Below, in pieces: positions 7,020 to 62,037 of a stretch of DNA of 64,000 bases (positions are counted from its first letter, which is position 1; every line of letters starts with the position of its first letter). Under the pieces are notes generated by a model. That model saw only the letters and a list, made by a program, of their open reading frames with translations. It did not search any database and was not told where the DNA came from. Position numbers and translations under genes: made by a program. The stretch lies in NCBI RefSeq assembly GCF_040183065.1, contig NC_091123.1, forward strand, positions 111,884,821 to 111,948,820, read 5' to 3'. Source of the stretch: Periplaneta americana. Its lineage: Eukaryota; Arthropoda; Insecta; Blattodea; Blattidae.

Positions 7020-7800
7020 TTATACATACATAAGTGTTCTGCCCATAGGCAAGTCTTTCACTGCAAACCCAGCATTATCCAATCTTTCCTATTTTCTGCC
7101 TTTCTTTTAGTCTCTGCATATAATCCACATGTCTATCATCTGATATTTTCTTCTGTACCGAACTCTTATTCCTTTCACCATTCCTTCCAGTGCTTCCTTC
7201 AGCATGCAGTTTCTTCTCTGCCGGTGACCCAACCAATTCCTTTTTCTCTTTCTGACCATTTTCAGCATCATTCTTTCTTCACCCACTCTTTCCAACGCAA
7301 CTTCATTTCTTATTCTGTCTGTCCATTTCACATCCTTCATTTTTCTCTATATTGCTTTCAAGTGCTTCTATTCGTTTCTCTTCATTTCATCGTAATGTCC
7401 ATGTTTCTGCCCCCATACAATGCCACACTCCGCACAAAGCACTTCACTAATCCCTTCCTTAGTTCTTTTTCCAGAGGTCCGCAAAGATGCTCCTTTCTCT
7501 ATTAAAAGCTTCCTTTGCCATTGGTATCCTCCTTTTGACTTCCTGGCAGCAGCTCATGTTACTACTTATAGTACATCCCAAGTATTTGAAGCTGTTCACT
7601 TGCTCTTCTACCTCATTTAGAATTCGCAAGTTTACCTTCTTTATTTTTCTTGCGACAACCATGGTCTTCGTCTTGTTTGCATTTTTCTTCATCCCATACT
7701 GCTCACAGCTGTTATTTAGCTCCAGTAGCATATTCCTTAGTATCATCTCCTCTTCTGCTAATAACACCATATCATAGCAAATCTTATGCACTTTATTCTT
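7020..7800 (-). mobile_element. RTE-type LINE 3' half (minus copy)
   Basis: Minus-strand fragment of an RTE-type LINE. It covers the RT region just after the palm (NANKTKTMVVARK, SFKYLGCTISSN, AMAKEAFNRERS-type blocks at 7791-7459) and the C-terminal WTDRIRNE / RKRNWLGH region (7340-7107), ending near 7020 in the conserved 3' end also seen at 23182 and 31330. The palm motif region is altered (CYDMVLLAEEE). Frames are broken. The same stretch of the LINE is present in the opposite orientation immediately to the right. Confidence 0.85.
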
Positions 7801-7829
7801 CTTCCTCCTATCCTAGATCGTGATCTGTG

Positions 7830-8258
7830 CTCCTACTTTTACAATAAAGTGCATAAGATTTGCTGATGATATGACACTGTTAACAGAAGAGGAGACGATA
7901 CTAAGGGATATGCTACTAGGTCTAAATGACAGCTGTGAGCAGTATGGGATGAAGATAAATGCAAACAAGACTAAGACCATGGTTGTCGCAAGAAAAATAA
8001 AGAAGGTTAACTTGCGAATTCTAAATGAGGCAGTAGAGCAAGTGAACAGGTTCAAATGCTTGGATGTACTATAAGCAGTAACATGAGCTGCAGTCAGGAA
8101 GTCAAAAGGAAGATAGCAATGGCAAAGGAAGCTTTTAATAGAGAAAGGAGCATCTTCTGCGGACCTCTGGAAAAAGAACTATGGAAGAGACTAGTGAAGT
8201 GCTTTGTGTGGAGTATGGCATTGTATGGGGCAGAAATATGGGCATTACTACGAAATAT
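7830..8258 (+). mobile_element. RTE-type LINE fragment (plus copy)
   Basis: Starts at the same point of the LINE as the minus copy: IKCIRFADDMTLLTEEE, with an intact FADD palm motif. It continues through NANKTKTMVVARK, the frameshifted CLGCTISSN block (8056 on), and ALYGAEIWALL, ending at 8258. Its end abuts an unrelated minus-strand LINE tail (8262-8470). Together with 7395-7800 it forms arms of about 400 bp separated by only about 30 bp. Confidence 0.85.
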
Positions 8259-16004: not shown

Positions 16005-16405
16005 TGTCCAGTTAAACTATAACAGGTAGCACTAATGAACAGAATTTACTAGACGAACAACAACGAAAAGACGAAAGTGTCGTCACGAAACACACCACGT
16101 ACTAGAAAGGAAACGTGATCTTGCGGCTTGGGTTTGGGAGAGTTCACTAGCATATTGCGGGGTTTGGTGGTTAAGAGGACAAGCCAATAATTAAACGTGT
16201 TCGGTACAAGTGACGGGAAAATAGTTCAGGCAAGTGCAAGAGTCCTCAAGGGTCATGTCAGTGAACGTTAATGCGGAAGTCGATATTCTATTATATAAAA
16301 GTTAAACATTTATATATGAAGCAGTAATTTGTATTAATTCTACTATTGTTGAGTTAATATATCAAATTCATGTAACAAATTTTCTTACAAAATTTTATAG
16401 TATCA

Positions 16406-16589
16406 CCACAGTCTAGTACATACAGTCACGAAGCTCAATACGTAGTAAATATGCATCCATAGATAGTTGCTAACCACTAGGATCGCTACTATCGCCTCAT
16501 TACAGACAATGCGAAATAGTACCAGGACAGTCTATTGTTCCTAGCACCCTCACAACTCAAGCTTCGTGACTCTATATACTAGACTGTAG
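16406..16589. mobile_element. MITE family M1, copy 1
   Basis: A 184-bp element whose ends are inverted repeats: ccacagtctagtacatacag on the left and ctctatatactagactgtag on the right. It has no coding capacity. A second copy of 185 bp at 43060-43244 matches throughout (for example gctaaccactaggatcgcta and ctactatcgcctcattacag). Which superfamily mobilises it is not evident. Confidence 0.85.
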
Positions 16590-16824
16590 TACCGGTATGT
16601 ATCTACGAATAATAAAATTATTCTTGATAATAAAAAGTAATCAGACTTGCTTAATCTGACGGGCCCTTATTGCGCATGGGTTCATATACACTCACACCCT
16701 TTGCCCCCTCTTCTCAGTGGCCCTGAAGGCGGTGTCCAGCACCTTAAATCTGGGCCCAATCAACTAAGAGAGTAAACCCCTACAGAAAATCCTTGATTAC
16801 GAATATTTCACAAAATAAGCTCAT

Positions 16825-24670: not shown

Positions 24671-26150
24671 CAGAGTGTTTCAAAAATACGGGGCATAATT
24701 TCAGGTATGTATTTCCCACATGTAGACAATCAAAATAGTTCATTACAACATGTGTCCGGAAATGCTTCATTTCCAGTTATGGCCTTCACAACATTGAAAT
24801 TCACTGGAACGTTTTTCTTTCTGCAGGTCGTTGTCATTACAGAAGATGTTCAAAATGTCCACCTCTTGCTTGAATACAGACCTCACATCGATGTCTCATT
24901 GACCTGCGAACACGATCCCAAACTCCAGGAGTATTGCGTATGTCCTCAGAACATGCCACAATTCGATTCCGAAGGGATTCCAAATCAGGCACCAGAGACG
25001 AATAAACCAATGATTTTAAATGGCCCCACAAGTAGAAATCGAGAGGGTTCAGATCAGGTAAGCGTGGAGGCCAAGCAATTGGGCCACCTCTACCTATCCA
25101 TCGATCAGGAAACCTTCGATCCAAGTACCGGTGACCCGTACAACTGAAGTGTGCAAGAGCGCCATCATGCAAGAAGTGAATGTGTTGACGATTGATCAGT
25201 GGAGTGTCTTCTAAAACATGAGGTATGGTGTTTTCCAGGAAGTTTGTGTACGCCTGGCCCGTAAGTCTGTTTACAAGTACATGGGGTCCAACTAATCGAT
25301 CACCAATGATACCGGCCCACATGTTGAGGGAGAACCGCACCTGGTGATGAGATGGAACAGTTGCACGTGGGTTTTCATATGCCCATACATGCTGATTGTG
25401 GAAATTTGTTATGCCATCTCATGTGAACTGTGCTTCATCTGTAAATAATACTAAGGCAGGATTTACACCACACTGCTGCAAGAACCACTGACAGAACCTA
25501 ACTCGTGCAGGGTAATCTGCTGGTGACAGGGCCTGTACACGTTGCAAATGATAAGGATACAATTGATACTCTTTCAACAGTCTCCAGACAGTCGTATGAG
25601 GAACATTGACTTGCAACACTACTCTTCGTGTGCTGATAGAAGGAGTCATGTTCACAGCCTCCAGAATCTCCTCCTGTACTTCTTGAGTTTTGATCTTGGT
25701 CGTCCCCTTCCCAAACCAGGAGAGTTAAATTTTCCATACTCGCACAGACGGTAATGGAGACGTACAAATGTCTTCCGATCTGGACATTGTCGCTGTGGGT
25801 ACCTCTCCTGGTACAAACGACGAGCCAGCGCAGCATTGCCGTCCGCCTTACCGTACATGAAGTGTATCTCTGCCAGCTCTTGATTTTTTAATACATGTCG
25901 CACAGTTTAATGCCTACACAACACTGAATGTAACCTTCGCCTCGGAATGAACTGTCAGAGTGCCCTCTTAATGTCTCCTTTGACGGCAACGACCTGCAGA
26001 AAGAAAAACGTTCCGGTGAATTTCAATGTTGTGAAGGCCATACCTCGGAAATAAAGCATTTCCGGACACATGTTGTAATGAACTATTTTGATTGTTTACA
26101 TGTGGGAAATACATACCTGAAATTATGCCCCGTATTTTTGAAACACCCTG
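24671..26150 (-). mobile_element. Complete mariner-type element with long inverted repeats
   Basis: 1480 bp, flanked by TA dinucleotides at 24669-24670 and 26151-26152. The terminal inverted repeats start cagagtgtttcaaaaatacg (left) and cagggtgtttcaaaaatacg (right, reverse complement). They match with only about six differences over roughly 163 bp (24671-24833 and 25988-26150). This is much longer than the ~30-bp repeats of classic mariners. The left repeat runs right up to the transposase stop codon. The transposase is broken (see separate entry), so this copy would need help to move. A degenerate relative lies at 10211-13520. Confidence 0.92.
24837..25903 (-). pseudogene. Mariner-type transposase, DD41D spacing (one frameshift, one stop)
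   Basis: Starts MRHVLKNQELAEIHFMYGKA, a DUF4817-type helix-turn-helix region (GNAALARRLYQERYP). A frameshift follows near 25690, then a second DNA-binding segment (NVPHTTVWRLLKEYQLYPYH) and the catalytic domain. The first aspartate is in LFTDEAQFT. The next codon is TGA in place of a likely arginine codon, and reading resumes through FHNQHVWAYENPR. The second aspartate (HDGALAHFS, codon 25166-25164) and third acidic residue (NPLDFYLWG, codon 25040-25038) are 41 residues apart. All three catalytic residues remain. About 355 residues overall. DD41D spacing is known from rosa-type mariner relatives. Assignment to that family is an inference from spacing alone. Confidence 0.88.
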
Positions 26151-27045: not shown

Positions 27046-28262
27046 CACAATGTATGACCACAGCAGTGGCGGCCGGTGAGACATTCTGGTGGTGGTGCCA
27101 AAAATGAAAAAAGTTGTACCCAAATTACCCTAGTGAAATTAATAATCGCAGTTCACGTTTGCATTATATTAAATAAAAACACATTAATTTAATCAGCTAT
27201 TTTACCAGGTGTACAGTTAATAATGTATCTAGTAACAGTTACAATAACATTTCCGAAACTAATAACGAAATTTACAGATACAGATAATAAAAACTTTCAC
27301 AGTATTGTTAGTCAAATACAAATAACTTTTATAACCAGTAAAATTACTGGCAAAAACACACGAGATAAACAATGACATAGATAATAAACAAACACGTTTG
27401 CACTTTATTTAACAGGCCGATGAATCCAAGGCAGCGGCCTGAATAACACATGTTCATGTCCTGCACAGATCTCATGTATCGTTAACAGAAGCATCAATAC
27501 TATAGCAACATTATAGCGATATTTAGTTGCCGCAAAATAAAACAAATATTACACAACATTAACACACAGTTTTACATAATATGAAAAAATATTTATCTTT
27601 CTACAAAGAACCATGACTATCTCTGCGTTCAATATAGCTAAATGGATAATAATTTACACATTCAAATCCAAGTTATGTGTAGAGATGGGAACGATATATC
27701 GGTTTTTACGAAATACCGATATTTTCGTTTTGATATATCGATATCGAAATTTTGATTCAATATATCGGTTTTCTCATAAATTTATCAGTTTTTTTTATAT
27801 TTGTTTTTGTGGAATTATTATGAACAAAAAAATCCACACTAGTTAACTCCGATAATTCCCTGAGAGATGGCGTTAATGAAAGTGAGTAGTTACATAATTG
27901 TGCAATCTTGAAATATCCAATCCAATCAATGCCTCTCTCTGATTGGCTGGTCTAGAATTCGAATTCAAACTATTTAATATGCAGTACCAAATTCAAAATC
28001 CAACGTGTGTGAACGTAAGACTGAGACGGGAGCTTTATCTACTAGTGTGTTAGAATTAATTTCTCCAAGGCAGGAGCAACTGCCACTCTGAAAAGGAATC
28101 GTCTGACTTCAGAACTTTTATTTCTGTGTTTTTAAATGGAAAGAGAAACAAGGATGTAATACTGGTTTGAGATTTGTTTACAGCTAGGATTTCTATGCAC
28201 AACCTAGTACTGACATTGTTTTATTATTATAGCCTATATTTTAGTACATAAAAATTGTATCA

Positions 28263-28301
28263 CCATCATCATCATCATCATCACCACCACCACCATCACC
28301 A
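28263..28301. repeat. (ATC)n/(ACC)n microsatellite
   Basis: Six or so ATC units followed by ACC units inside hAT-B. Confidence 0.9.
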
Positions 28302-29368
28302 TTGAGATTTTGAATGTTGGAGTATAACAATAACTTGCAATGGGAACTTACTATAGAAGGTTTGTATCAAATCACAATTATTGTGAAGTTTGATAAAACT
28401 TGTAACATTCTAAGTACTATTTAGTTACATTTAAAAATGAATACAAGTACTGTTTACTTAGATTTAAAATGATTACGTTGTTATCTAGAAAAGAGCATTA
28501 TATTTGTATCCTCGATTGAATCCTATATAAAATTAGAATAATTGAATCGTGGATTGGAAAAAAACTGATGGGGATCCTAAAGAAAATTGGAGTGGATTGG
28601 AAAGAGAGAAGGTTTTTCAGTAACCTACAAATGAAAAGAGTCAAAGGAGAAGAAATGTCAGAAGCAAGTGAAACAGGGAGAAGAGTACGACAAGGATGCC
28701 CTTTATCACGTACCCTGTTCAACATCTACTAGGAGGATTTAGTGAAAAACTGTTTTCAGAACATCGGAGGAGTGATAGTAGGAGGAAGAAGAATAAAGTG
28801 TGTAAGATTTGCTGATATGGCATTGTTAGATAATACTAAAAGATAAGTTACTGGAGCTAAATGACAGCTGTGAGCAATATGGAATGAAGATAATTGCCAA
28901 CAAGACGCAAACCATGGTCGTAGGAAGAAAAGTAAAGAAGGTGGATTTGTGAATTTTAAATGAGGGAGTAGAGCAAGTGGACAGCTTCAAATACTTGGGG
29001 TGTACTATAAGCAGTAACATGAACTACTGCCAAGAAGTCAAAAGGAGAATAGCAATGGCAAAGGAAGCTTTTAATAGAAAAAGGAGCATCTTCTGTAGAC
29101 CTCTGGAGAAAGAAATAAGGAAGAAACTAGTGAAGTGCTTTGTGTGGAGTGCAGAATTGTATGGGGCAGAAACATGGACATTACTAAGAAGCAAATAGAA
29201 GCATTGGGAATGTGGATATGGAGAAGCAGTGGCGGCTCGTGGGTATTGAATTCAGGGGGGATGCATACAAAAATAAACCATGCAACTTATCTTATTTAAA
29301 GATTAGTTCCATGCGCCTTGTCTTGTAGGTTGCAAACTTTTGAATAATCTTCTTATTAAAATCCGATG

Positions 29369-30501
29369 TCATTTAACATAATCTTTACAATGGAAAACAT
29401 AGATTAATGCGGTCAGTCTCTCTTCTCTCATCGTATTTCTAAAATAGGATTCCACTCTTTTCAAACACGAAAAGCAACGTTCTGGTTCGGAAGTTGTCAT
29501 TGGTATGGTGATAGCTATGCATAGTAGTTTCACAACTTCTGAAAATGAGGCCTGCAAGTTCTCAGATAGAAGAAACTGCAAGAGCTTGACTGAGTCACTG
29601 ATATTTCTGAATTATTGTCTCTGATATAACACAGTGAGGTCCGTTTTTAGTTTCTCTTTATCGAACATTAGAAAAAGCTTCACACATACATTTAGATCAT
29701 TTTCAGGAAATGAGCTTTTGTAGCATTCAAATTTTTCTTGACACAGAAGAGAAGAATCAGGTGTTAGCTTGTGTGAAAATGAGGTCACACATTTCCTTAG
29801 CTGCCGCAACCGTTGTCTGAATCCCTTCGACCTTACGACACTTTTTAGAGTTTTCATTTTCACAGATCTCGCTGCTCAACTATACACTGTTCCATATTGT
29901 CTGTATGGCATTAACAAAGCTTGATATGCAGAGTCGGCCTCGGTAGCATAGTCGTTCTGAGTTCATCCCGGCCCAGGTCGATGGCATTTAAGTGTGTTTA
30001 AATGAGAAAGGCTCATGTCAGTAGATTTACTGGCATTTAAAAGAATCTTGCGAGACAAAATTCCGGGACACCGGCGACGCTGATATAACCCCTGCAGTTG
30101 CGAGTGTCGTTAAATAAACCATAATTTAATTATTTTATATGCAGATTTGGACCTTAGAAATATCTAACTGGCGATGTTGTAGTTGGTTGTATAATATATC
30201 TACATGATACATCAATAAATGAAAAAAACAGCCAGAAATTGAATTCAGGATCTTCAAGAGCACGCACCAGGGTGCTTGCCTCATTTATTGTGATGTTAGA
30301 TGTTTCAGATTCCATTATGGTTTGAAAACATTCTAGCAATGACTCCTTCTCATGAACAACATTTACTGTTCTTATTTTAAAACTCCATCTTGTTGCCCCA
30401 GTGTCTTTAAAACACATTAATCTAATACAGACTGTGTGGAGATCGAGAGAAGAAAGCAGGGATACTGGATAAATCAGCAACAAATATGCGAGCCTTTGCA
30501 T
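29369..30501 (-). pseudogene. hAT-C transposase remnant
   Basis: Minus-strand pieces of a hAT transposase. 30501-30154 carries the GATRWSFKIRTVN and ASTLVRALEDPEFNFWL blocks of the central domain. 29863-29612 carries a cysteine-containing linker. 29581-29369 carries the dimerisation region (LCIAITIPMTTSEPERCFSC, LKRVESYFRNTMREERL). The N-terminal zinc finger and the DUF4371 half are missing and a SINE interrupts at 29932-30136. Internally deleted and frameshifted, so inactive. Confidence 0.85.
29932..30136 (+). mobile_element. SINE family C, inside hAT-C
   Basis: Starts gagtcggcctcggtagcata (degenerate A box), then a B-box remnant (gagttcatcccggccca), the body caggtcgatggcatttaagt and the 3' block tgcgagtgtcgttaaataaa. 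The target duplication atatgcaga lies at 29924-29932 and 30137-30145. It is the innermost element of its stack. The B box is partly deleted compared with a functional head. Confidence 0.88.
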
Positions 30502-32157
30502 TTTGTTTAGCGGCTCTTTTCATTATGAGATTCAACAGATGGGCACTTAATTTCACATTTCTCCTGAATTGTTAAGGTTCTGAACTGAATAGACTGTAAA
30601 TATTGTACAGAATTAAACATTGTGACACTTGTCATACTCACAACATTAAAGAAAGTGTATTTAAAACTGCGTGCTACTGACAAGCTGCTGCAAATTTTGC
30701 AGCGCCTGGAAACGCTGGATTCATGGCCAGGGGCAGCAGGGGGAGGGGTAAAACTAACGCGCGAAGCATCCGAGAAGAGACTGGCAGCTCCAGGGGAGGA
30801 AGTGATTTCATCCATAGTCTTTGTCTCTGGCTTCGCTCTGGCAGCACCAGGGGAGGAAGTGACTTCACTAACGATTGCGTGCATGTCAATGAGAGCGAAA
30901 TGTTTTTAAAAAATTCGAGCCGCTAAATAGAGACTGTATAATAAATGTATTTCACAACATAAAACGAGACAAGAGTCACAAATGTCTGGGGGTGCTGCAG
31001 CTCCGCAGCCCCTCTTCGAAAGCCGCCCCTGTGGAGAAGGCTAGAGCGTGTGAAATGGACAGAGTGAAAACGAAGCTGTGTTGGAAAGAGTGGATGAAGA
31101 AAAAATGATGCTGAAACTGATCAGGAGGCGGAAAAGGAATTGGCTGAGAAGAAACTACCTACTGAAGGATGTACTAGAAGGAATGGTGAACGGAAGAAGA
31201 GTTCGGGGCAGAAGAAGATATCAGACGATAGACGACATTAAGATATTATGGGTCATATGAGGAGACAAAGAGGAAGGCAGAAAATAGGAAAGAGTGGAGA
31301 ATGCTCTGTCTGCAGTGAAAGACCTGCCTTTGGGTAGAACACCATGAATGAATGAATGTTTCATTGTCAAATTCTGATCCATATAGAGTTCACTTAACAC
31401 TTTCCCATTGTATCATTTAAGCTCATCTTACCTCCACCATAATTTTGATTTAGGTTAGGAACTACTTAATAATAAAATTTTGAAAATGTATTGTTTATCG
31501 TTGCAATTTTACATTTAATCTTTTGATTGTTATTATGTTAATTTCAATTCTATTAAGGAATAGGCTATTAAAATTTAAGCTTATTGTAATAAATGTACGC
31601 CCACAAATGTAATTGCATTAGTAGGCCTATCTATTAATTTGCTTACGAGATAGCGATATATCGAATCGTTTCAATATACCGATATATTTTCTGCAATATA
31701 TATCGTTTATCGAAATTAGGTTTGCAATATATTGCAATATCAATATATCGGTATTTAAATTATTTCCCCCATCTCTAGTTATGTGCATTAGTTTTGAATT
31801 GGCAACATTACATGAACATTTGGCGCGAAACTCCAACTCATAGACAAATAATGTCTCCAACAACCCTGCCATCTAGCGAATTTCTGCATTACTGTGCTCT
31901 AGCGGGCGGAATATTAACTACTGAGTCAAATTGAATTCGGCCAAGGCGGTCTTGATTCGGCTCAAAGTCTGCCATAAGAAACGCATATAAACTTCAGTCG
32001 CGCTCAAACCTCCTGACGTTTCGCGAAAGCCAGTAACATGCGAGCGCGATGTTGTCAAAACTACTCTCTCCGTCTCTGTCACTGAGCGGCAGTAGTTTTA
32101 AAACTGTGGAGCGCGACCCTTTACCTGAGGTTGGTTTGATAGGGAGATGCAGAAGAC

Positions 32158-32158
<1 letters not shown>

Positions 32159-32218
<60 letters not shown>
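32159..32218. repeat. (TAA)n microsatellite
   Basis: About 20 TAA units in the 3' region of the Sailor-type element. Confidence 0.95.
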
Positions 32219-32221
<3 letters not shown>

Positions 32222-32594
32222 TAAATATTATTATCTTCAGATTGCATCGAATGAAATTAAAAGTCACAAAATATAGAAAAATTAGTTGAGTCAGACGTAA
32301 CTCGCTGAATTTATATCAGTTTTGTAAGTTTTACTTTTATTAGGGTTAATAAAGTTGTCGAATAACACAAAGGCGCAGCTTGATCAAATAAATTGAACGA
32401 TAAGATTAATTTGAAATAGTAGGCCCTAATTTTCTGTAGCCTACAAATGAATTGATTGAATTGACATGGACCTAAATAGCATTATGTCCCTGCTGTCAGA
32501 CCACATTCTTACAAAAATAGTGGTTTTTATATGCCTGTGTTGCGTTTAAGGAAAATGATGAATTAATAAAACGTACCTTTTGTGCTGCAAATTT

Positions 32595-32642
32595 CTACTC
32601 CAGTGGCAGAGCTAATGGTGAGCCAACATCGTCGTATTCAGC
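32595..32642 (-). pseudogene. Sailor transposase C-terminal tail, severed by hAT-D
   Basis: On the minus strand, after removal of hAT-D and one copy of the tattcagc duplication, the frame from 40484 upwards continues GEGAEYDDVGSPLALPLE and ends in TAG at 32595. It shows that hAT-D landed inside coding sequence, 15 or so codons before the stop. Confidence 0.8.
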
Positions 32643-32943
32643 CAGGCGCGGATCTAGAATTTAATAATAGGGGGGGCTAATAGTAATTGAGGGGCTGGGT
32701 GCAAGAAGGGCATTTTAGAGGATGTGCCCTTTTTGAGTAAAACGCTTTATTGTGTTCTCTGATCTGTTTTTTTTTTTTTTTTTTTTTTTAAATTCGTCAA
32801 CTTTTGGATACAGTATCGAAATCTTGGGTGATCTCCCGACTGTTCCTAATTACTTTTACTTATTGCTGAGAGGTAGTTCATTTATGATGCTGCACTCCCG
32901 TCATAACCAGGATGAACAGCATGAAAACAAATTTGACAGATAA

Positions 32944-35631
32944 CTATGAGAAGAGGAACAAAGGTGTACGATGTCTTGTGTAGTACTGAGGGTTATAAGT
33001 TCCTAGTTTTGATACATACACATTTTGGTGGGAATGTGCCTGTTTATAAAATGTTTCAGCGAATCTCCTAATGATAACTGGGATACTTTCCACTTTTAGA
33101 TCTTGATGTATCTCTTCGTTTCTTGTGTACCACCCGCTGTTATGAATTACACGTAATACTTTATTTTGTACAACTCGAATGGGATCTAATGTTGTCTTAG
33201 GTGCGTATCCCCATACTGTAGAACCATACAAAAGCACTGATCTAATCAGCAATTTATAAATTGTTACTTTTTTAGATGTTGACAATGCACGTGTTTTTAA
33301 AAGGGGATACAGTTGTACCATTCTTGCTATTGTTTTTGCTCGTATATTTGCAATGTTGGTATGCCATAACAGACGACTGTCCAAATGGATTCCAAGATAC
33401 TTAACAGAATCCTGAAATTCAAGGGCAGTACCATACAGTGTGAGTTTAGTTTGTGGTACACTTCGAGTTCTACTGAAGGCTATGACTTGACTCTTCATTG
33501 TATTTACAGTTAAGCGCCAATGTTGGAACCATTCTTCTAAAAGGTGGACATGCCGTTGAAGTCGACCAATGGCTAGATCGGCATTACGATGTGTAGTGTA
33601 TGCTAGTGTATCATCTGCATATAAGGCTAACCTGGTGACGTCAGTTTCTGGAAGATCTGAAGTATATGCACAATATAAGTAAGGGCCCAGTACAGAGCCT
33701 TGCGGAACTCCTCCTTGAATTTTCTTTTGTCTTGATAAACAGCCGTCTTCCTTAACACAGAAACGTCTGTTCCGAAGAAAATCAGCAATAATATGAATCA
33801 GTGCATCAGGAACCTCTGATTGGATTAATTTATAAATTATACCAGTATGCCACACAGAGTCAAATGCACTTTTGACATCGAGAAATATTGCTACGGTAGT
33901 AGCTCTGTTGTTGAAACCGATAGTTGTTTGTTCAACAAGACGCAGCAGTTGGTGTGTTGTAGAGAGACCTTGTTGATATGCAGCCTGATAGGGTGGAATA
34001 AGGTTTGGTGCACTTTGTAGAAGTCTGGTCATAAGAATTCGTTCGAATACTTTGCCAAGGGCATTAATCAAACTTATTGGTCTGCGATTTGCTGGAACCT
34101 TTGGATTTTTCTTTTGTTTGGGAATGGCAGTAATATATGCAAGTTTCCAAGCATCTGGAAAATATCGATGAGCTATACACTGATTGAAAAGCTTGGTAAT
34201 ATACATAAGTGCCTTTCTAGGTAAGTTTTTAAGTTCCATGTTGTTAATTTTATCAGGACCTGGTGCCTTTTTTGGTTTAAGGCGTTTAATAATGGTTTTG
34301 ACTTCTGACGGGCTCGTTAAACAAATGTACTGGGATACGGGACATAGTAGGAATGTGCTGACAGTTTCCTCGACATGGCGATAATGTTCAACTAAGCTGT
34401 CACATTCATTAGCAGGTTTAAATTGGTTCTCAAAACAATCGGCTATCAGTTCAGCTTTTTCACAAGACTTATAAACTGGGCCATCTTTGCCATGTAAAGG
34501 TTGATTTTTAGAGTAGGAATCATGTTTGGTTAACCGTTTGGTGATTGTCCAAATTTTATTTGACTGTCCTGCATCAGCAACATCTTTTTCAAATTTCGAA
34601 ACTTTGATTTCTAGTGCCATTTTGTGCACTCTATTTTTCATAATGTTATATACGTTTTTGTCAATTTGTGATCTAGTTTTTTGCCAGCGCTTACGAGCTC
34701 TCTGTTTAGCCATTCTTAGTAGACGTAAATTCGAGTTTTGATGGAGATAACTTTGTATTGGTTCTTTCTCTAGTGAAGCATATTTTGCTGCTTTCAAAGT
34801 ATTTTCAAAGATTTTAATTCCTTCATCAATGTCTTCTTTTGTTGTAATCAATGGATTAGCAGAAATTGATTGTGAAATATATCCCCGATAGGACGACCAA
34901 TCCATGCTGCTTAAGAAAGCTTGAGGAAATAGCCTCTCAGTAGTTGCTCTTTCAATGATTAAAACAACAGGGTTATGATCAGAGGACAGTTCTTGTAAAG
35001 TGTCTATAAACAGGGGTACAGTATTACATCTGAAAAGAAATCCATCAAGTACATCTGGTTTATGATTTGCATTTTGAGGGTAGAAAGTAGGTTTGTTAGG
35101 AGTTAAGATTTGATAGCCGTGCTTGTCAGCATGTTTTGAGAGTATGCGACCTCTGGTTGTTGTTACGCGTGAATTCCACTCAATGTTCTTAGCGTTGAAG
35201 TCACCGCCAATTATAAAATTATTTGATATACAGGATATTGCATCAAGTTCTGAAACTAAGAAAGGCTTATTTGGAGAGCAATACATCGATCCAATTAAAA
35301 TGGTTTCGTTATTGTACTGAATTTCAATTAAAGTTATAGATATGTGTGTAAGCTGGGGTGATTGTATTCTGTAATGTCTAATACAATTTTTAATTAAGAT
35401 AGCTGTTCCACCAAAAGGGCCATTACTTCCATCAGAGCGATACACTGTATAATTTTTAACGCTGAGTCTCTTATTAGGTGTTAATTGAGTTTCTGTGATT
35501 AAAAACACATCTATATCATGCTGATGTAAAAAGTCGTCAAGTACATTTTTATCCCTAGTCACTCCATTTGCATTCCAGGTCACTATTTTTAGTGGCTTGT
35601 GTAACGTTTGTCTGGGTTTATTTTGTTCCAT
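32944..35631 (-). CDS. Jockey ORF2, endonuclease and reverse transcriptase
   Basis: Start placed at the ATG at 35631 (MEQNKPRQTLHKPLKIVTWN), giving 895 residues and a 14-nt overlap with ORF1. An upstream in-frame ATG at 35688 is less likely. The apurinic-type endonuclease covers roughly the first 230 residues, with TWNANG, LITETQL, GGTAILIK, IIGGDFNAKN and SSDHNPVV all present. The RT follows from about residue 460: NRRPISLINALGKVFERIL, FLDVKSAFDSVWH, GGVPQGSVLGPYL, the intact palm LYADDTLAY, and VKYLGIHLDSRLLW. The C-terminal region carries VVQNKVLRVIHN and the typical terminal fold. It nicks target DNA and copies element RNA by target-primed reverse transcription. No stop, frameshift or lost catalytic residue is visible. 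DVLDGFL replaces the usual DILDLAL-like motif. Confidence 0.95.
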   Translation of the reverse strand: MEQNKPRQTLHKPLKIVTWNANGVTRDKNVLDDFLHQHDIDVFLITETQLTPNKRLSVKNYTVYRSDGSNGPFGGTAILIKNCIRHYRIQSPQLTHISITLIEIQYNNETILIGSMYCSPNKPFLVSELDAISCISNNFIIGGDFNAKNIEWNSRVTTTRGRILSKHADKHGYQILTPNKPTFYPQNANHKPDVLDGFLFRCNTVPLFIDTLQELSSDHNPVVLIIERATTERLFPQAFLSSMDWSSYRGYISQSISANPLITTKEDIDEGIKIFENTLKAAKYASLEKEPIQSYLHQNSNLRLLRMAKQRARKRWQKTRSQIDKNVYNIMKNRVHKMALEIKVSKFEKDVADAGQSNKIWTITKRLTKHDSYSKNQPLHGKDGPVYKSCEKAELIADCFENQFKPANECDSLVEHYRHVEETVSTFLLCPVSQYICLTSPSEVKTIIKRLKPKKAPGPDKINNMELKNLPRKALMYITKLFNQCIAHRYFPDAWKLAYITAIPKQKKNPKVPANRRPISLINALGKVFERILMTRLLQSAPNLIPPYQAAYQQGLSTTHQLLRLVEQTTIGFNNRATTVAIFLDVKSAFDSVWHTGIIYKLIQSEVPDALIHIIADFLRNRRFCVKEDGCLSRQKKIQGGVPQGSVLGPYLYCAYTSDLPETDVTRLALYADDTLAYTTHRNADLAIGRLQRHVHLLEEWFQHWRLTVNTMKSQVIAFSRTRSVPQTKLTLYGTALEFQDSVKYLGIHLDSRLLWHTNIANIRAKTIARMVQLYPLLKTRALSTSKKVTIYKLLIRSVLLYGSTVWGYAPKTTLDPIRVVQNKVLRVIHNSGWYTRNEEIHQDLKVESIPVIIRRFAETFYKQAHSHQNVYVSKLGTYNPQYYTRHRTPLFLFS

Positions 35632-37102
35632 TTCCAAACAGACTAGAAACACCATCAATGAACACTGATATTTTATTAAAAATATCATTTTGTTGCTTCA
35701 CTTGCAAGAAGGTTTGATGTAAACATCTTAAATAATAACTGATGTTGAATGTTTTTAAAAAGTTCCACCATTCTCTCAATTCATGAAAAAATTGACTAAA
35801 AGATGAACTGTCAGCAAATTGATCTGGTGCCTGTCGAGTATTATTATCAATATTTACCTTTCGGAATCCTTTAATAACCTGTTGAGTGACAGGAAGTGGA
35901 GGAAAAGACTGGGCAGAAAGATCTGGCTGCTTCTTATGGGTAGGATTCCTGGTTTTCACTCCATTTACGTAAGCTTGGTATTTTGGACACTGTCTAAAAT
36001 TAGCAGGATGATCCCCTTGGCAATTTGCACATTTTGCAGGAATAGAAGTAGGTTTTTGACAAGAATATGATTCATGGTTCTCACCACATTTAACACATCG
36101 TGGTTGTATGTGGCATGAATGAGCCTTGTGGCCAAACCCTTGACACTTGTAACATTGAATCGCCCCTTGCCGGGAGATGTAATCTTCAATTTCCACTCTA
36201 AGATGGCAAAGACTGCGTAACTGACGAATATCGGGTTTGTCTTGTAATTGATTTACTGTCAGGACCCAAATTGGCATAGGCAACCATGTCATTAAGCCTG
36301 TGTTTTCATCTTGGACTTTTTTTCTTAATTGTCGAACTGACTCAATAGGATAATTTAAACTCCGAAGTTCAGTTAGGATTTCTTCAGACGAGGATTCATT
36401 TGGAAGTCCTTTTAGAACAACTTTCAATACTTTTGAAATGTTATAAGGAAAGGTATAGAAATTATATTTTTGCAGAATCAAATAATCTTGTAATTTCTCA
36501 AAATCATCTTTTGTTGAAACATATAGTTTTAGACCGACAGGACTAAACTTCCCTTCTGCTAATATTTGAAGCGAGTTCTTCAAAGTTTGTTGCAACTTAA
36601 AGTAATCAACTTTACTTGTTACCACAATAGGGGGTGGTGGCTTATGTTTCCGACTTCCATTTTGGGAATTTGCAGATTTTTCTTCTGTGGTGGAAAAATC
36701 CATTTGTGATGTAGGTTGTTGACTTATAGAATTATCTATTTCAATTTCTGGATCTTCTAATAGTGGTTGGAAAACATTGTTAGTTTTCACCGGAACTGTA
36801 GTTCCCATTTTCTTATACAAACGAGTAGCTGAAGTTCGGGGAAGAACTCCCTTCATTTTACTATGTACTGACTTGAATTTAAATTCATGTATGTCGGCTT
36901 CTCTAGGTGAGGACATTTTTCCGACTTTACGCCGTGTTCCAGAAGAGTTATGAACTTCATCAATATGCGAAGAAATGGCATTCTTTTCCAGTTGTGGATT
37001 TATAGCAGTATCATAGATGTCTGAATGAACCTGAGCAGTAGTTATAATTTCACTGAAATCACTCGAATTTTCATTAGAAGTCATATTGAATAAACAACAC
37101 AA
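35618..37102 (-). CDS. Jockey ORF1, gag-like nucleic-acid-binding protein
   Basis: 494 residues, MCCLFNMTSNENSSDFSEII at the start. The N-terminal third is polar and probably disordered. The middle holds the PRE_C2HC-type region that precedes gag zinc knuckles (KVLKVVLKGLPNESSSEEIL, PIWVLTVNQL). Three zinc knuckles follow at about residues 315-360: CYKCQGFGHKAHSC (C-x2-C-x4-H-x4-C), CVKCGENHESYSC (C-x2-C-x3-H-x4-C) and CANCQGDHPANFRQC (C-x2-C-x3-H-x6-C). In the family, ORF1 binds element RNA and forms the ribonucleoprotein needed for retrotransposition. The gene overlaps the start of ORF2 in another frame. No lesion seen. Confidence 0.93.
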   Translation of the reverse strand: MCCLFNMTSNENSSDFSEIITTAQVHSDIYDTAINPQLEKNAISSHIDEVHNSSGTRRKVGKMSSPREADIHEFKFKSVHSKMKGVLPRTSATRLYKKMGTTVPVKTNNVFQPLLEDPEIEIDNSISQQPTSQMDFSTTEEKSANSQNGSRKHKPPPPIVVTSKVDYFKLQQTLKNSLQILAEGKFSPVGLKLYVSTKDDFEKLQDYLILQKYNFYTFPYNISKVLKVVLKGLPNESSSEEILTELRSLNYPIESVRQLRKKVQDENTGLMTWLPMPIWVLTVNQLQDKPDIRQLRSLCHLRVEIEDYISRQGAIQCYKCQGFGHKAHSCHIQPRCVKCGENHESYSCQKPTSIPAKCANCQGDHPANFRQCPKYQAYVNGVKTRNPTHKKQPDLSAQSFPPLPVTQQVIKGFRKVNIDNNTRQAPDQFADSSSFSQFFHELREWWNFLKTFNISYYLRCLHQTFLQVKQQNDIFNKISVFIDGVSSLFGNGTK

Positions 37103-37669
37103 TGGGTCCGTCTACAGACGGCCCAAAAACGAAGAGAATGTAACTCAAATAAATATAATAATTGTAATTAACACACAAAAATTAAGAACTTGCTTTCAGC
37201 ACAAATTTTAAATAATCTGAACACTAGTGAAAGTTAAACACAATGTGAGCACTGTACGCAAAAAGACGCAGCTACTAACTGACTAGGACTGCTCTCCACC
37301 GCGTACCACAGCCAACTCTCTGATCTGTTATGCATATGATAACAAAGTTGTAGTTTAGTACTGTGATCATAGAGGTCAGGAGTACCGGTACCCAAAATGT
37401 AAAGGCGTGCATAGATAACATTATTACGGTTTGAATTTTCAACATCAATTTTCTCAAAACTTGCATTTGAGAGAAGTGCCTTTCTTGCACCCAACCCCTC
37501 AATTAACATATGAATACAGTAGTATAATCACAACACAGAAGAATGGAATTAAAAACAAATAAATAAACCACAACAATATTGTCACTCTTAGGTTCTAAGT
37601 CTTCAGTTAGTTCTAATTCTAAAGGAAATGGTGACTGGAATGGAAAGTCGATTAAATGTTATTTACAGT

Positions 37670-40047
37670 TTAACGAAGCTGAAGTCGTCTGGGATGTTTT
37701 CTTGCGAAAAGTTCTATTACTTCGTCCGGACTTAGGTCAATGTTACGATGAATGTTGAGCAATACCAAACCATTCAGTCTGTCCTAGTTCATCGTCGATC
37801 TGAGGTAGGTTTTCACACGTCTCAGTGTTGAGAATGACCGTTCCGCGGTGCAAGTTGTCACTGGCATGACACATAATATAGTGAGCAGCTCTCTTATATT
37901 GGGGTAGAAATTATTCCTAGTATGCAGCAAAGCTTCTATAGCCGTGTCTGGTTTTTTTGTTGCTCCTTCCAAAATTGAAACCACAAATGTAGCTCTCCTC
38001 TAAGCTCTGGAATAGTTCCTGGCAGATCCTGTTCATAAATCGTTGCAGCTTGTAGGATGACATCGATATTTTTATCAGGATCGTGTAAAAAGTTAGGAAT
38101 CAAAGATTGGAGTTTAATTACATGACTGTGCCTAGCAGGCGAAAATCGTACTGACAAATCGCTTAGAAGGTGATCAAGAAAAGGAAGAAATACATTGAGG
38201 CGGTAATAATCTTTAGGAGACTTAGACGCAACATTATTGCGATGGATTTGTCTGGATGCAACTCGAGGTACATTTACTTCTACGTCTACAGATTGAGCCA
38301 ATGCAACAGCCTTCTCAAAAAGAAAATTATAAGTGTTATTATCTCGGCAGGCCTGAAGAGTATTCATGACACATTCAACCATCTGGTAGCACTGACTTAG
38401 TTCGAGATTTGGGCTCTGTAGCTTCCGCGAAACACACAGTGTTATTCCAAATATTTCTGCTGAAATATGCAATGAAATTATGAATTCGAATTTTAAAATT
38501 GAGTTAAGCATCAAATGTGCCTTTGTACCATAGGATCCAAAATCTTCCAGGAATGATATAACTGCGGAGAAAATGTCTAAAAATTGTAACACTGCGTCAT
38601 GCCGTTCAATCCATCTTGTTTCACGCAAGGTCTTTAGTTTCGTTTTCTTGTGTTCAGGGCATATTTGACTAATTTTTTCTTTCATCATGATTGACCGCTT
38701 GCTAGACTCCCTAACATATTTTGCTATTTCAGCTACTGTGTCTACAGTTTGTCTAACACTGGGAACAGAGCACGATTTTGAAAGTGACAAATTTAGACAA
38801 TGTGAGGCACAGTGCATATAGTATGCGAGAGGCTGCTCTTTTAAAATTCGTGCTTGGACACCGCAAAACTTCCCCGACATATTAGCACCGCCGTCATAAC
38901 CCTGTCCGCGAAGATTCGAAATGTCTAGACCTAAGTCCCACAGTTCACTTAAAACAACTTTTGACAATGTCTCTCCACTTAGATCTTGCACCACTACGAA
39001 TCTCAAAAATTCCTCATGCAAGTAACACTTTTCTCGGTCTACGAATCGCACACATAATAATAGTTGCTCATTGGAACTGATGTCGGTTGTTTCATCTACT
39101 AAGATAGAAAAATATTTACTTTGGTTAACCTCTTCAACAATTTTCTTTTCAATAATGGTGCCACAGCAGTTTATGAGATCGTTTTGCGTTGTTTTACTTG
39201 TTAGAGATGAGTTTTTGGGGGCATTTTTAAGATGACTATGCAGAATCTGATCACCGGCATCAACGCGATATTTTAGAAGCTCCCTGAAATTACCTTCGTT
39301 TTGATTTTCGCTTTCCAAGCCAATCGCACCATCATCCCTGTGTCCTCTTAATGGAATATTTTGTCGGCCGCACAAAATAATTGTTTCTACTATTGGGACA
39401 AGTTTCATCCTGTTTTCGCGCACTGTTTGTAACACTTCATTATTCAATTGAACCAGAACGTTCTCTACCTTACCTTCAAACATTTGTTTAAAGTTGTCAC
39501 ATTTTAAGAGAGCAGTTTTATGATAACTGTTCTCTGAATGTCTCCTGAATATTTCAGAGGCCTTTTTGAATTTTCTTAGAGGTTTCGTAACTAAATTCTG
39601 TAACGTCACTTTGCTTCGCCCTCCCTCTTTAGATCCGAATAAAACGCACACGTGACAGAACACACCTTCATCCTTCTTACTGTAAGAGAGCCATGGAAAT
39701 CTTTTAAGCCACGCACGCTGAAATTGTCTAGACTGTCCCGATTCTAGTGTCTTCGGAAATAGATATTTTTCGTCTGGAACCCACGGATTTGTTAGAGCCT
39801 TGTATTTTATCTCGTCGCTGCATATTTCTTTTTCCACTAAGCAACCAATATCTAATACATTATGAATCGTCGAACTAGCGTCATCACTTTCACCGCATAT
39901 AACCGATTCCACTGTTACGGTATTAACAGGCATACACTTTTCTTCATCAGTTGTATCATTGTCATCCGTACTGCACTTTTCTTTCACTTCACCACACAGC
40001 TTCTTGATGAATTGTAAGATATTTGTTTGAAACTTACGTTTCGACAT
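37670..40047 (-). pseudogene. hAT-D transposase (TTF finger + DUF4371 + dimerisation), two lesions
   Basis: Opens at MSKRKFQTNILQFIKKLCGE (40047) and runs 703 codons. A TTF-type zinc finger region lies at about residues 88-140 (NPWVPDEKYLFPK, FPWLSY, VFCHVCVLFG). DUF4371 and the catalytic region follow with ILVDETTDISSNEQ, GQGYDGGANMSG and MHCASHCLNLSLSK, then ETRWIERHDAV. Near 37958-37952 a run of seven T (A on the coding strand) carries a one-base loss. The frame then continues as KKPDTAIEALLHTR and the dimerisation motif CVMPVTTCTAERSFSTLRRV (37984-37784). A TAG follows RSTMN, then the family's terminal DRLNGLVLLNIHRNIDLSPD block to a TAA at 37670. The homopolymer lesion could be a sequencing error. 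The TAG is a second defect. Confidence 0.9.
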
Positions 40048-40602
40048 TTTATAATTTCTTATAACTGTTACACTAAATAATTCACCTGTACGGACTGATC
40101 ACTTCTCGTCTCAATTCAGAAGTCGAATGTAGTGGCTATTGTAAAGTACGATAACAAAGGTGTTGGTAGCGGCCTAGCTACAGTGTGGTAGGGGTGGTTA
40201 CAGTTAGATTTCCGTTCCGAAGTCCGAGCTATTGTTAAACCCCATGGTAACGACCCCTAAGGAATGCGACCACTTACCTGATCTATTCACTCGAACTGTA
40301 AAGAGAGTTTGTATGCGAAAGAAAATAGCAAAATAATATTAAGTTTAGAAAGTGAAGAAATCATATAAGTTATATGAATAAAAAAATAATGCTTTGTACA
40401 TTTTAAATAAAAAAAGTCTTTGAATTGATATGGGGGTCTATAGCCCCCTAGACCCTCCCCCTTGTATCCGCGCCTGTATTCAGCCCCCTCACCATCAGTT
40501 TTACTGTCATCTGTGTCACTGTCTTCTTGTAAATTAATGATTACTGGTTCTAAAATGCTAACTCTTTAGCGAAATCTTCCTCTTGTAATTTCACCGCTTG
40601 TT

Positions 40603-41748
40603 TCACGCATTTTCAAGTTCCTTATGTACAAGTTCTTCCACATCCGACATTTTGAAAGTTTTGTTGTTTCTAGCGACCTCCCTTTTCACCTGGGCCCAAA
40701 TTAGTTCTATTGCACTATATTGGCAATGATAACGTGGGAGTCTTATCACTTCATACCCCATTTCATTGGCCAGCTGATCAAGTTCATACATTTTTTCACT
40801 GCTTTTGAAAGGCAACACTTTTTCCAAAAGTTCTGACTTAGTGTCTGAGGGAGAAAAACTAACACCTTTACTTTCCAGCCATTCACTGATTTCATCTTTT
40901 TTAGAGGAGGTATTTGGTGGTCTATTAATGCTAACGGAATGGTATGGAGCATTGTCCATTATAATTATATTCTCTTCCTCTAAATGATTTAGAAATCTGT
41001 TTAAGAACCAATCTCGAAATGATTGTGCCGTCATTTCTTCGTCATAATCACTGGTTTTCTTTGATCTGAATACCCAATTACTACCTGGAACGAAACCTGT
41101 TTCAGCTGACCCTACATGGCAAACAATAAGTCTACCTCCCTTTCCTAAAGGCACTTTAAGACCTCTATTTCTATTTGAGTCTTGCCAAACATATTTCAGA
41201 AAATGATTTTTGTTGAACCACGTTTCATCAAGGTAAAATGTGGGTCGAGTGTCACCTGATGATCTGATCATGTGCATTTTGCGCAGAAACGTCAGTCTTG
41301 CGGCAACAATATCATTCCGTTCCATTAGATATTTTTGCCCATCATTGGTTTTCCTGTAGCGGAATCCCAACCGATTCAATAATCTTTTAGTGGAAGAAAC
41401 TGAACCTGAGTAATTATTTTTTTTTATAAGCAGTACGGTTAGTTTGCCAGCTGTCGGAAATTTCCCGTTATCGTAAAAGTAAAAAATTGTACGTCGTACA
41501 ACGTCTTTTTGGAAGTCGTCTAGATTTGTAACTCTTTTAGGAACATTCATATGCTTTCTAGGAGAATGGAACAATTTATCGGCACCCTGTGTTTGCACTC
41601 TTTTAACGCCTCTGCATACACGGGACATTGCAGACACACTTAAAGAATACGTCTCGGCAGTCAGTGCTTGACATTTTGAAAAGTTAAGATTTTTACGCAT
41701 TTCTTCAGAAGAGTATTTCCTAAAGAAATTATAAACACTAAACACCAT
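40603..41748 (-). pseudogene. Sailor-type transposase, main open part
   Basis: Start chosen at the ATG at 41748 (MVFSVYNFFRKYSSEEMRKN) rather than an in-frame ATG 28 codons earlier, because conserved-looking sequence begins there. An N-terminal helix-turn-helix (SVSAMSRVCRGVKRVQ) and a second HTH-like region (SVSSTKRLLNRLGFRYRK) precede the DDE domain. Catalytic residues are D174 (FYLDETWFN), D265 (IIMDNAPYHS) and E348 (YSAIELIWAQ), with 82 residues between the last two. The frame stops at 40603, but shifted frames continue VKQAVKLQEEDFAKELAF. Then EPVIINLQEDSDTDDSKTDG and an acidic tail run across hAT-D to a TAG at 32597-32595. At least two frameshifts plus the hAT insertion disrupt the C-terminus. 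The catalytic core is intact. Confidence 0.88.
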
Positions 41749-43059
41749 TTTCCGAATTTTACTGCCATATCCACTCGATCCACCATTCCCACTTCCCACA
41801 TAATTGTTTTGAGAATGCCAAATTGCCAACACAGGGAAAAGGTATTACATTACACTTTCATATACCGTACTTTAAACAGAGCCAACTGCACACAACACCA
41901 TCAGAAATCGAACTGACATTTCAATTTAGTAGTCTCTCTTCTCTCCTCTCACAAACAGATAACTCTGTTTATATTCTGAAGGGACCCTTTGTTTGAAGCT
42001 GTAAGTTTATGGTTCTCAAAATTCTTACATACGATAAACATTCCTTATCGCATCGCAGCTGTATAAACATCGTCCACTACTTCATTGCTGGAAGTCAGCA
42101 CAAAGCAATGAGACAGAGGCAACTGTGACGAAAAAATCTTACGAAATTACGATGATCAGAAATAACTCTCTGATTCATTATAAATCCCATCATCCACATT
42201 AAGGACAATAATAAAAAATCTCTGCAGCTGCGACGTTGGAAGGATGTAAGCGCAAGAGAGTGAAGTGTGATAAACATGAGGACTTGGAAACACGCACACG
42301 ACAAATAACTATAAATTACTTTTTTCGATAGAACTGAGTATAGTATATATTGTAAATGTCTTTGACGTACAATACAGTAATTACATAATGGAGTAATGCT
42401 GTATTACTTTTCATGAATCATGTAATTCCATAAAGAAAAATGCTAATAGATATTGTATATAAGTGAAAATTACAAAGTATATCCGTCTAATACGCGGCCC
42501 CGATTAATACGAGGTTTACACGTAGTCCCTTTAATAGCGTCTTATCGTATTAACCCATAAAATTGGAACCACTGGAGGTAGAAACGTGATTTTTGTTTCT
42601 ATGTGTTCAGAAAACATTAAGCATTCATTATATTTACATGCAGGGTCCCAACAACATACCAATTTTCCCAGCGCACTTGTTATTTGATTTTGAGATTTCT
42701 AAGCGGCGACTATGCGGCGGGTCTGTGTAGCCCGTATGTTGCAACGCAGCACTGCCGCTATTGGCTATCGCCGATAAGCAGACACACCTGTAAACGTCAG
42801 GAGGTTTGAGCGAGACTGTAGAAGCAGTAGCCTTTTGTACAGTGTTATATGGACGCAGGTAGTGCCTCACTGAAGTGGCTCCAACGTTCGGAAAAACGCT
42901 GCAAGAGTGCGTCCGGATTTGTGCGCTCGCTCGTTCAAATGAAATACGAATAAAATGTGTAGAAATAAACTATTACAACTGCTTTCTAGGATATTATTTT
43001 TGTTTCTTTCATTGGTGGTGCCATGGCACACTGGCACTACCCCAAAAGCCGCCCATGGA

Positions 43060-43244
43060 CCACAGTCTAGTATATACAGTCACAAAGCTCAATACGTAAT
43101 AAATATGCATCCTTAGATAATTGCTAACCACTAGGATCGCTACTATCGCCTCATTACAGATAATGCGAAATAGTACCTGCACAGTCTATTGTTCCTAGTA
43201 CCCCCATAAACTCAAGCTTCGTGACTGTATATACTAGACTGTGG
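43060..43244. mobile_element. MITE family M1, copy 2
   Basis: 185 bp, ends ccacagtctagtatatacag and ctgtatatactagactgtgg. Its left end overlaps the right target duplication of hAT-A (43058-43065). It therefore predates hAT-A. Confidence 0.88.
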
Positions 43245-43379
43245 TATACTATATAACGTCTTTGGGTATGATCGTGAACTGAACACGTGACAAATGACTC
43301 GATGCATGCAAAGTAAGCTCATTGAGAGCTCATTCACACCAACACCGTTTAGAAAATCAATTATTATTCCTAGGTTATT

Positions 43380-43739: not shown

Positions 43740-44548
43740 CATAGGCGGAGTTATGGAGGGGCAAGGGAAGGCACTGCCTTCCCAAACTTGTCTCAACTTT
43801 TTTTTTCTATTAACATTAGAAAATATTGAATTTAAAATATATTTTTTACTTTTGTTTTATGATTAAGTTTCTGTGCTTAAAGTGATAAATTAATGTCTTC
43901 AGATCATGTGTCTGGGCTGGACTATAACATTTATTTTAAATTTCTGAATGTATAAGAATTGCTATACCTCACTTGAGGAACGGAAGCATTGTAATATTTC
44001 TTTTGTAACAGCCTGTACTCGTGTGTTAAAAGTCTGCAGGTGTTCAGGCTGCCACTTGGAGAAATATGAATAATAGTGTACAACAATGCAGAAAAAAGAA
44101 AAGTGATCCTTTTATAATGTGTAACTTAAAGACGAGATTAAATAAAATAGAGTTTACATTTCATACATCTCAGGAAGGTAAACGTCATATAAAAAAGTTT
44201 CTGTTAGCACTGTAACGTAGTTTTATTGATTTATGCATGTGTTTCTGTACGAGAGAGAAAAATAGGGAGATTGTTGTAAGTTATACCCTATTATAGTTTA
44301 TAGTAGACCTACAGTTCAAGCCCTATACAACTCTGTCCAAAACATCACGGATATTGATGTAACACTGTAAGAAATATGCCCTCGAAAATACCTGTATTAA
44401 ATGACCATATTCCAATATATTGTACCACGGTCAAGCTATAACGGGGGAGGAGGTAAATGATGTCCCCCATAACCCCGTTATATGGGGATTCTGTGGCTTT
44501 GCTTTGCCCCCCTCCCCCCCCAAGGAAATGGTTCTCTCTCTGCCTATG
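43740..44548. mobile_element. Non-autonomous hAT
   Basis: 809 bp. Termini CATAGGCGGAGTTATGG (left) and CATAGGCAGAGAGAGAAC (right, reverse complement). The 8-bp duplication is gttagatc at 43732-43739 and gttagatg at 44549-44556, one mismatch. Subterminal runs of G/C pair (ggggcaaggg and gccccc). No transposase. Confidence 0.78.
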
Positions 44549-60995: not shown

Positions 60996-62037
60996 CATGG
61001 TTGCTTTTTCTGTGCAGTAGAGAGCTTTTCTTATTGAAGCATGCTTCAGAACAGGCAGCAAGGATGGAGATGGAAACTGGAAGTATAATATTGAAGACGA
61101 TGAAGAACAGTTTGTTTATCGTTTTCGTAATCACTGAAAACTTCTGCAGAACTCCTAATAATTTGATTAGTAAATTTAGAGAAACCGGATGCACAGAACA
61201 GAAAAGGTATTTTGAAAAGGCTACAAAACTAACAGAAGATTTAGTTGCAAATGTAAAAGAAAAATGCAGAAGAGTCCTCATAAGTTCTTAAAGAGAAGGG
61301 CTGCGGAAACGGGCATTTCATACGCAAGTGCTCATACAGTTCTGAGGAAAAAGTTACACATGTTTTCATATAAAGTTACGGTAATACACGAGCTTCAAAC
61401 ATTAGATCCTCTAGCCAGGCTGCAATATTGCCATTAGTTTGAAGAAAATATGACTGAGGACAAGTTGAACCTTACATTTTTCTCAGGGTATGTTCATAGT
61501 CAAAATTGTAAGTCATGGAACACAAACAATCCACACCAATTCATTGAAACTTCCCTACATCCACAACAAATAGATGTTTGGGTTGCTATGTCTAGGAGAA
61601 GAATTATTGGCCCAATATTTTACGACGAATCAGTAGATGTTAAATTTTATAGGGAGAATATTACAGCACCAGTTTTAGAAGAAATTTATAATAATAAACT
61701 GCAAGAAGGCTTCTTTCAGCAAGATGGTGCTACAGCACACATGGCACATAATACAATCCAATTCTTAGAAGAGTTTTACGACAGTAGGTTGATAAGTGCA
61801 GGACTAGAGTCCCCAAGATCACCTGATTTGACACCACTAGATTATTTTCTATGGGGATATTGCAAAACGAAAGTGTACGCCAAATATCCCACAACAATTG
61901 AAGAATTGAAAACTTGTATAGAGGAAACTATACATGGCATTAGTAAAAGCACTCTTCAGAAGGTTTTTGTTAATATGTGTAAAAGAGTTGGAGCATGTAT
62001 TGAAATGGATGAAAATCACTTTCAACACCTAATTTAA
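60996..62037 (+). pseudogene. Mariner-type transposase pseudogene, first catalytic Asp deleted
   Basis: Begins near ATG 60996 (MVAFSVQ, stop, RAFLIEACFRTGS). After frame shifts it reads NLISKFRETG and then, from 61294, AAETGISYASAHTVLRKKLH and YKVTVIHELQTLDPLARLQY, the DNA-binding and linker region. A TAG lies before FEENM. The long open part (61450-62037) has HSQNCKSWNTNNP, IDVWVAMSRRRIIGPIFYDE, the second aspartate in FQQDGATAHMA and the third in SPDLTPLDYFLWG, with 38 residues between them. Where relatives have a SDEAxF motif this copy reads TFFSGYVHSQ, so the first catalytic aspartate is deleted. It ends FQHLI at 62037. Terminal repeats not found. Confidence 0.85.

Follow-up and report, generated by a model that had tools for sequence, protein, structure and literature searches.

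Directional insertion of one transposable element into another yields a relative order of transposon activity, and this is the basis of the Transpositions-in-Transpositions (TinT) chronology, which works from a genome-wide frequency matrix (PMC3014933). For the American cockroach, Periplaneta americana, the assembly paper (PMC12774602) puts repeats at about 66% of the genome, and reports hAT and Tc1-Mariner elements as abundant, their Kimura divergence peaking near 5%, long interspersed nuclear elements (LINEs) of the RTE clade as old (31-32% divergence) and hAT elements as young. Sailor (DD82E) transposons are characterized by a DDE_3 transposase with 82 residues between the second D and the E, 27-bp terminal repeats and a length of about 3 kb, and they usually have a TATA target duplication and ends that start with GT or CC (PMC8533490). 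Elements of the hAT superfamily have 8-bp target duplications, short imperfect terminal repeats and a dimerisation domain. The subject of this analysis is a nest of such elements, 16 kb in length (about 27056..43065), within a 64,000-nucleotide stretch of P. americana sequence NC_091123.1; this stretch is called the window, and all coordinates refer to it. The locus differs from the TinT setting in being a single place composed mostly of cut-and-paste DNA transposons, and from the repeat landscape of PMC12774602, which gives class totals, in presenting a nested locus and composite families. None of the titles and abstracts that the literature search listed describes it.

The locus is very probably a genuine nest, built by six local insertions and carrying two inherited passengers besides; at its deepest point five elements are stacked (M1, hAT-A, Sailor, hAT-D and Jockey). 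By the mechanism proposed here, the short non-autonomous hAT element hAT-A would first have inserted into a miniature inverted-repeat transposable element (MITE), M1, near the left end of M1. hAT-A would then have been struck at two places, by hAT-B and, at a TA site, by a Sailor-type (DD82E) transposon. Subsequently hAT-C would have entered hAT-B, and on the other branch hAT-D would have entered the Sailor-type element and a Jockey-type LINE would have entered hAT-D. A LINE fragment in hAT-B and a short interspersed nuclear element (SINE) in hAT-C would have been brought ready-made, each having presumably entered an ancestral member of its host family a single time, after which the DNA transposon spread both together.

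Copies of each element were sought in the genome (3.23 Gb in 91 sequences) among the best 40 scored places only, so that the sampled copies are biased towards close relatives. The non-self places fetched were 27 of 40 for hAT-A, 26 of 39 for hAT-B, 12 of 39 for the Sailor-type element, 8 of 39 for hAT-D and 10 of 39 each for hAT-C and Jockey; the fetched genomic stretches holding copies carry L-numbers (for example, L003). Element ends, duplications, the sharing of the passengers and, for every insertion but that of hAT-A into M1, the empty sites were observed directly. The six target duplications quoted in a first-pass annotation of the window are all exact, and on its + strand each is found only at its two places (Table 1). 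The 8-bp duplication is exact for all four hAT elements, and terminal repeats are good in the Sailor-type element and in hAT-B, and shorter or imperfect in hAT-A, hAT-C and hAT-D. Genome copies of hAT-A, hAT-B, hAT-C, Sailor, hAT-D and Jockey stop at the ends predicted by that annotation or at most one base away, and uninterrupted genome copies back the local insertion of hAT-B, Sailor, hAT-C, hAT-D and Jockey.

All 27 fetched hAT-A copies are uninterrupted over both the hAT-B and the Sailor sites, and hAT-B and Sailor are therefore local insertions. Full-length hAT-A in one piece was found in 22 of the 27, with a perfect 8-bp duplication in 16 of these 22; a query of the left 501 bases gave 40 non-self matches, 39 of which begin at query position 4-9 (9 being 27064), at most five bases from the predicted end. 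Copies of hAT-B begin at 27680 (37 of 39 non-self places begin at query 12-21, where 21 is 27680), its end repeat TAGAGATGGG pairs at 10 of 10 bases, and the duplication is perfect in 7 of the 13 copies having both ends. hAT-C is a local insertion in hAT-B, since 23 of 26 distinct hAT-B copies run across its empty site, and all ten fetched hAT-C copies end at 31031. hAT-D is missing from all 12 fetched Sailor copies, 11 of which are continuous at the exact site and one (L084) of which has a small deletion there. The three complete hAT-D copies, 98-99% identical and with perfect duplications, are uninterrupted by Jockey, and three of five further short hAT-D stretches are continuous over the Jockey site (six of eight clear in all). 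The insertion of hAT-A into M1 appears to hold, judging from its duplication and from a second full-length copy of M1 at 16405-16591 (92.6% identity over 188 aligned columns). The nest could also have been moved or duplicated as one block, in which case its order would belong to another place; nothing seen directly speaks for this, and in the hAT-A, hAT-B, hAT-C, Sailor and hAT-D searches (best 40 each) the sole full-query match at 100% identity is the window, leaving such a transfer very improbable.

The first-pass annotation had counted eight elements and seven insertions at this locus, including that of the LINE into hAT-B and that of the SINE into hAT-C. Six insertions stand; these two are not events of the locus. 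The left junction of the LINE fragment is continuous in 25 of 26 distinct other hAT-B copies, the exception (L036) being a deletion there, and the right junction is continuous in 20 of 26, with the alignment checked at the junctions; the other six show an early end, the edge of the fetched stretch or an interruption (in L047, by hAT-C). No hAT-B copy with an intact LINE-free site was present among the 26 distinct fetched copies. Because other hAT-B copies have the same junctions, the LINE fragment is a fixed, inherited part of the hAT-B family. For the SINE, hAT-C copies were sought with a query that adjoins it and does not include it, which gave 39 non-self places. The SINE is present in all ten fetched copies, nine of which span its left edge (L076 has the 3′ part only); of these nine, four keep the left copy of its duplication unaltered and five have one or two changes in it. 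In all, 10 of 12 other hAT-C copies seen have the SINE at the same place, and because this site is occupied in other copies the SINE is an inherited passenger of a hAT-C subfamily rather than a local insertion. The duplication ATATGCAGA of the SINE is exact and the LINE does interrupt hAT-B in the window, as the count of seven insertions has it; that count would need repeated independent insertion at an identical base in dozens of copies to yield the junctions shared within both host families, and can hardly be entertained. Misjoining of repeat pieces, which such repeats commonly cause, is just as hard to credit for this locus, as all junctions lie at element ends common to other copies, the duplications match on both sides, and the assembly was built from PacBio HiFi reads (PMC12774602).

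Several observations weigh against a nest of six local insertions and two passengers. Two hAT-C copies that were encountered incidentally (L003 and L047) are without 378 bp comprising the SINE and flanking hAT-C sequence on both sides; hAT-C subfamilies with and without the SINE exist, and the SINE-free state is most simply read as a deletion. Among the eight fetched hAT-D stretches, L098 has no match and L095 barely reaches the Jockey site. Although hAT-A landed first, hAT-B, hAT-C and Sailor each show a nominally higher divergence than it (p 0.07, 0.15 and 0.22; pooled 0.11; the tests took 2280 sites for hAT-B instead of 2274), so that divergence in the early steps is in no proven conflict with the nesting, yet lends it no support. 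Divergence was taken as substitutions from the family majority, leaving out columns without a majority or with a family gap, and amounts to 18/1035 (1.74%) for hAT-A, 64/2274 (2.81%) for hAT-B, 45/1691 (2.66%) for hAT-C, 72/2969 (2.43%) for Sailor and 30/3267 (0.9%) for hAT-D. The hAT-A set leaves out L056, L049, L057, L065 and L068, which are not full length and all span both sites; the hAT-B set holds 13 of the 26 distinct copies, the 13 without both ends being left out; and Jockey was read from a 517-base search only. The early steps are not separated by divergence (1.7-2.8%), and hAT-D and Jockey come out last, the younger age of hAT-D being clear against Sailor (p 3e-6) and less so against hAT-A (p 0.04). 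The divergence of hAT-B, hAT-C and Sailor may in part be older than their insertion, as if they had been copied from an already changed source.

The nest of six insertions and two passengers gives a partial order. The full order of insertion given by the first-pass annotation is too strong a claim: nesting leaves the hAT-B/hAT-C branch unranked against the Sailor/hAT-D/Jockey branch. On the latter branch, both copies of the hAT-D duplication read TATTCAGC, compared with TCGTCAGC in most Sailor copies; the two base differences are shared by both copies and thus arose after Sailor had landed and before hAT-D did. Other nestings were met in L003 (hAT-A inside hAT-C) and L047 (hAT-C inside hAT-B, near 31350). 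As hAT-A lies inside hAT-C in L003 and hAT-C lies two levels down in hAT-A in the window, the two families were active over overlapping periods, and the succession of landings at this locus does not give that of the families.

Loci of this kind are well known, and the present one serves as a clean worked example of transposon dating by nesting. Its proposed use as a relative clock is sound where the steps are local but not where they were inherited within a family, and such inherited steps are invisible from duplications alone. Even a flawless target duplication within a transposon is no proof of local insertion, given that a composite may be copied as a whole: judged by sequence alone, the two inherited layers are indistinguishable from local insertions, and only other copies of the host family expose them. 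Exact duplications will overcount local events unless such copies are consulted, and methods that count nested pairs must collapse inherited junctions into one event; in terms of TinT (PMC3014933), two of the seven apparent nestings here are inherited composites that would be overcounted if each copy were taken as an event. Between nesting order and divergence from the family majority there is no visible agreement in the early steps, and divergence says little at the 2% level. A hot spot for insertion had also been suggested; no sign of one was seen beyond the two insertions in one 1-kb element (hAT-A), no statistical test having been run, and none is called for because about two-thirds of this genome is repeats, the figure from PMC12774602 given above.

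The presence of a fixed LINE piece in hAT-B and of a fixed SINE in hAT-C sets these elements apart from the hAT superfamily as described. Two unrelated hAT families would each have multiplied together with a built-in piece of retroelement, whose sequence cut-and-paste transposition then spread, and it is a rather doubtful but conceivable extension that the passenger was helpful to its carrier, for example as a putative spacer, promoter or silencing decoy. Of four peptide pieces of the LINE fragment searched, one matched RVT_1 at E 0.054, below the cut-off, and its RTE clade was not confirmed by this search; if it is RTE, an old LINE piece in a younger hAT agrees with PMC12774602. A LINE piece related to that of hAT-B forms an inverted fold-back pair at 7384-8256 of the window (88% over 878 columns). 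The hAT-B copy nearest to that of the window, L020, breaks off six bases short of the hAT-C target site (beyond position 3035). The passenger of hAT-C we take to be a SINE from its size, its duplication and the first-pass annotation; a search of 29900-30160 for a tRNA-like head gave no match in Rfam up to E 1.

Neither hAT-A nor hAT-B has an open reading frame (ORF) of at least 100 amino acids in its own sequence in the ORF list, and both are filed as putative non-autonomous hATs by their ends and duplications only; they presumably moved using transposase made elsewhere. hAT-C and hAT-D share the dimerisation domain (PF05699) with the superfamily, at 5.5e-8 in a piece of hAT-C and at 1.1e-9 in hAT-D, where it lies outside the frame of the 703-amino-acid ORF, downstream at 37330-37935 on the minus strand. 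M1, a putative mariner-like MITE, has inverted ends; TA adjoins CCACAG in L015, and the neighbours of M1 in the window are GA on the left and TA on the right. In L008 there are two hAT-A copies in opposite orientation, one apparently within or abutting the other.

The Sailor-type element resembles Sailor DD82E (PMC8533490) in its length of about 3 kb, its DDE_3 domain, its 82-residue spacing and its terminal repeats, which pair at 26 of 27 bases. In an alignment with the best 120 of 547 homologues the D-D-E triad is kept in 111 of 121 rows, and among the 113 rows that have both the second D and the E the spacing is 82 in 89, 81 in 18, 83 in 5 and 54 in 1. It is unlike the usual Sailor in that its ends begin CAGTC, hence with CA instead of GT or CC, and in that its duplication is TA instead of TATA. 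This duplication, absent from the first-pass annotation, is evident from hAT-A copies without Sailor, which read AAACTAGAAG; the window's own left copy has become TT. Other Sailor copies have TA at the left flank in 11 of 11 and TATA in none of the 11, and TA at the right flank in 2 of 3. The element is named Sailor-type for these reasons and is not filed as a typical Sailor.

The Jockey-type LINE has an endonuclease/reverse transcriptase ORF (RVT_1, 5.6e-34; Exo_endo_phos, 1.1e-16), a gag-like ORF (PRE_C2HC, 2.2e-5), a poly-A tail and a target duplication; the clade name is taken over from the first-pass annotation. Its 5′ end is common to ten of ten other copies with differing flanks, and the three copies read at both sides each have their own duplication. 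The duplication had been quoted as TCTCTGATCTGTT at 32756/37317. Because all ten other copies have a T just outside the end given with it, the 5′ end is probably 37317, with the T belonging to the element and a duplication of 12 bp. The family looks very young: the 517-base query (36800-37316) is matched at 100% identity over the matched part in 10 of 39 non-self rows.

Table 1. Features of the nested locus, in window coordinates; paired positions are the starts of the two duplication copies
Feature	Position	Strand	Description
MITE M1 left end	27057..27063	.	Severed from M1 body by hAT-A; GACCACAG at 27056 and 43058
hAT-A	27064..43057	+	1,062 bp without inserts; duplication GACCACAG (27056/43058)
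hAT-B	27680..31777	+	2,285 bp without hAT-C; duplication GTTATGTG (27672/31778); family-wide LINE fragment passenger
LINE fragment	28548..31358 (approximate limits)	+	5′-truncated, ATGA repeats at end; split here by hAT-C
hAT-C	29227..31031	-	1,805 bp including SINE; broken coding region; hAT dimerisation match; duplication TGGAGAAG (29219/31032)
SINE	29933..30136	+	204 bp; duplication ATATGCAGA (29924/30137); inherited part of hAT-C subfamily
Sailor-type (DD82E) transposon	31995..42818	-	2,982 bp once hAT-D and one duplication copy are removed; duplication TA
hAT-D	32643..40476	-	3,273 bp once Jockey and one duplication copy are removed; duplication TATTCAGC (32635/40477)
Jockey-type LINE	32769..37317	-	Two ORFs, poly-A tail; duplication CTCTGATCTGTT, 12 bp if T at 37317 is the element's
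hAT-D transposase ORF	37936..40047	-	703 amino acids, DUF4371 (1.8e-32)
Sailor-type transposase ORF	40603..41832	-	409 amino acids, DDE_3, 82 residues from second D to E
Right copy of hAT-A duplication	43058..43065	+	Exact match to left copy
MITE M1 body	43059..43245	.	31-nucleotide inverted arms 43059-43089/43215-43245, 97% complementary

Elsewhere in the window, ORFs at 24837-25340 and 61450-62037 are mariner transposase-like by eye and gave no Pfam match up to E 0.001. The stretch at 43741-43770 looks, also by eye, like the end of another hAT element.

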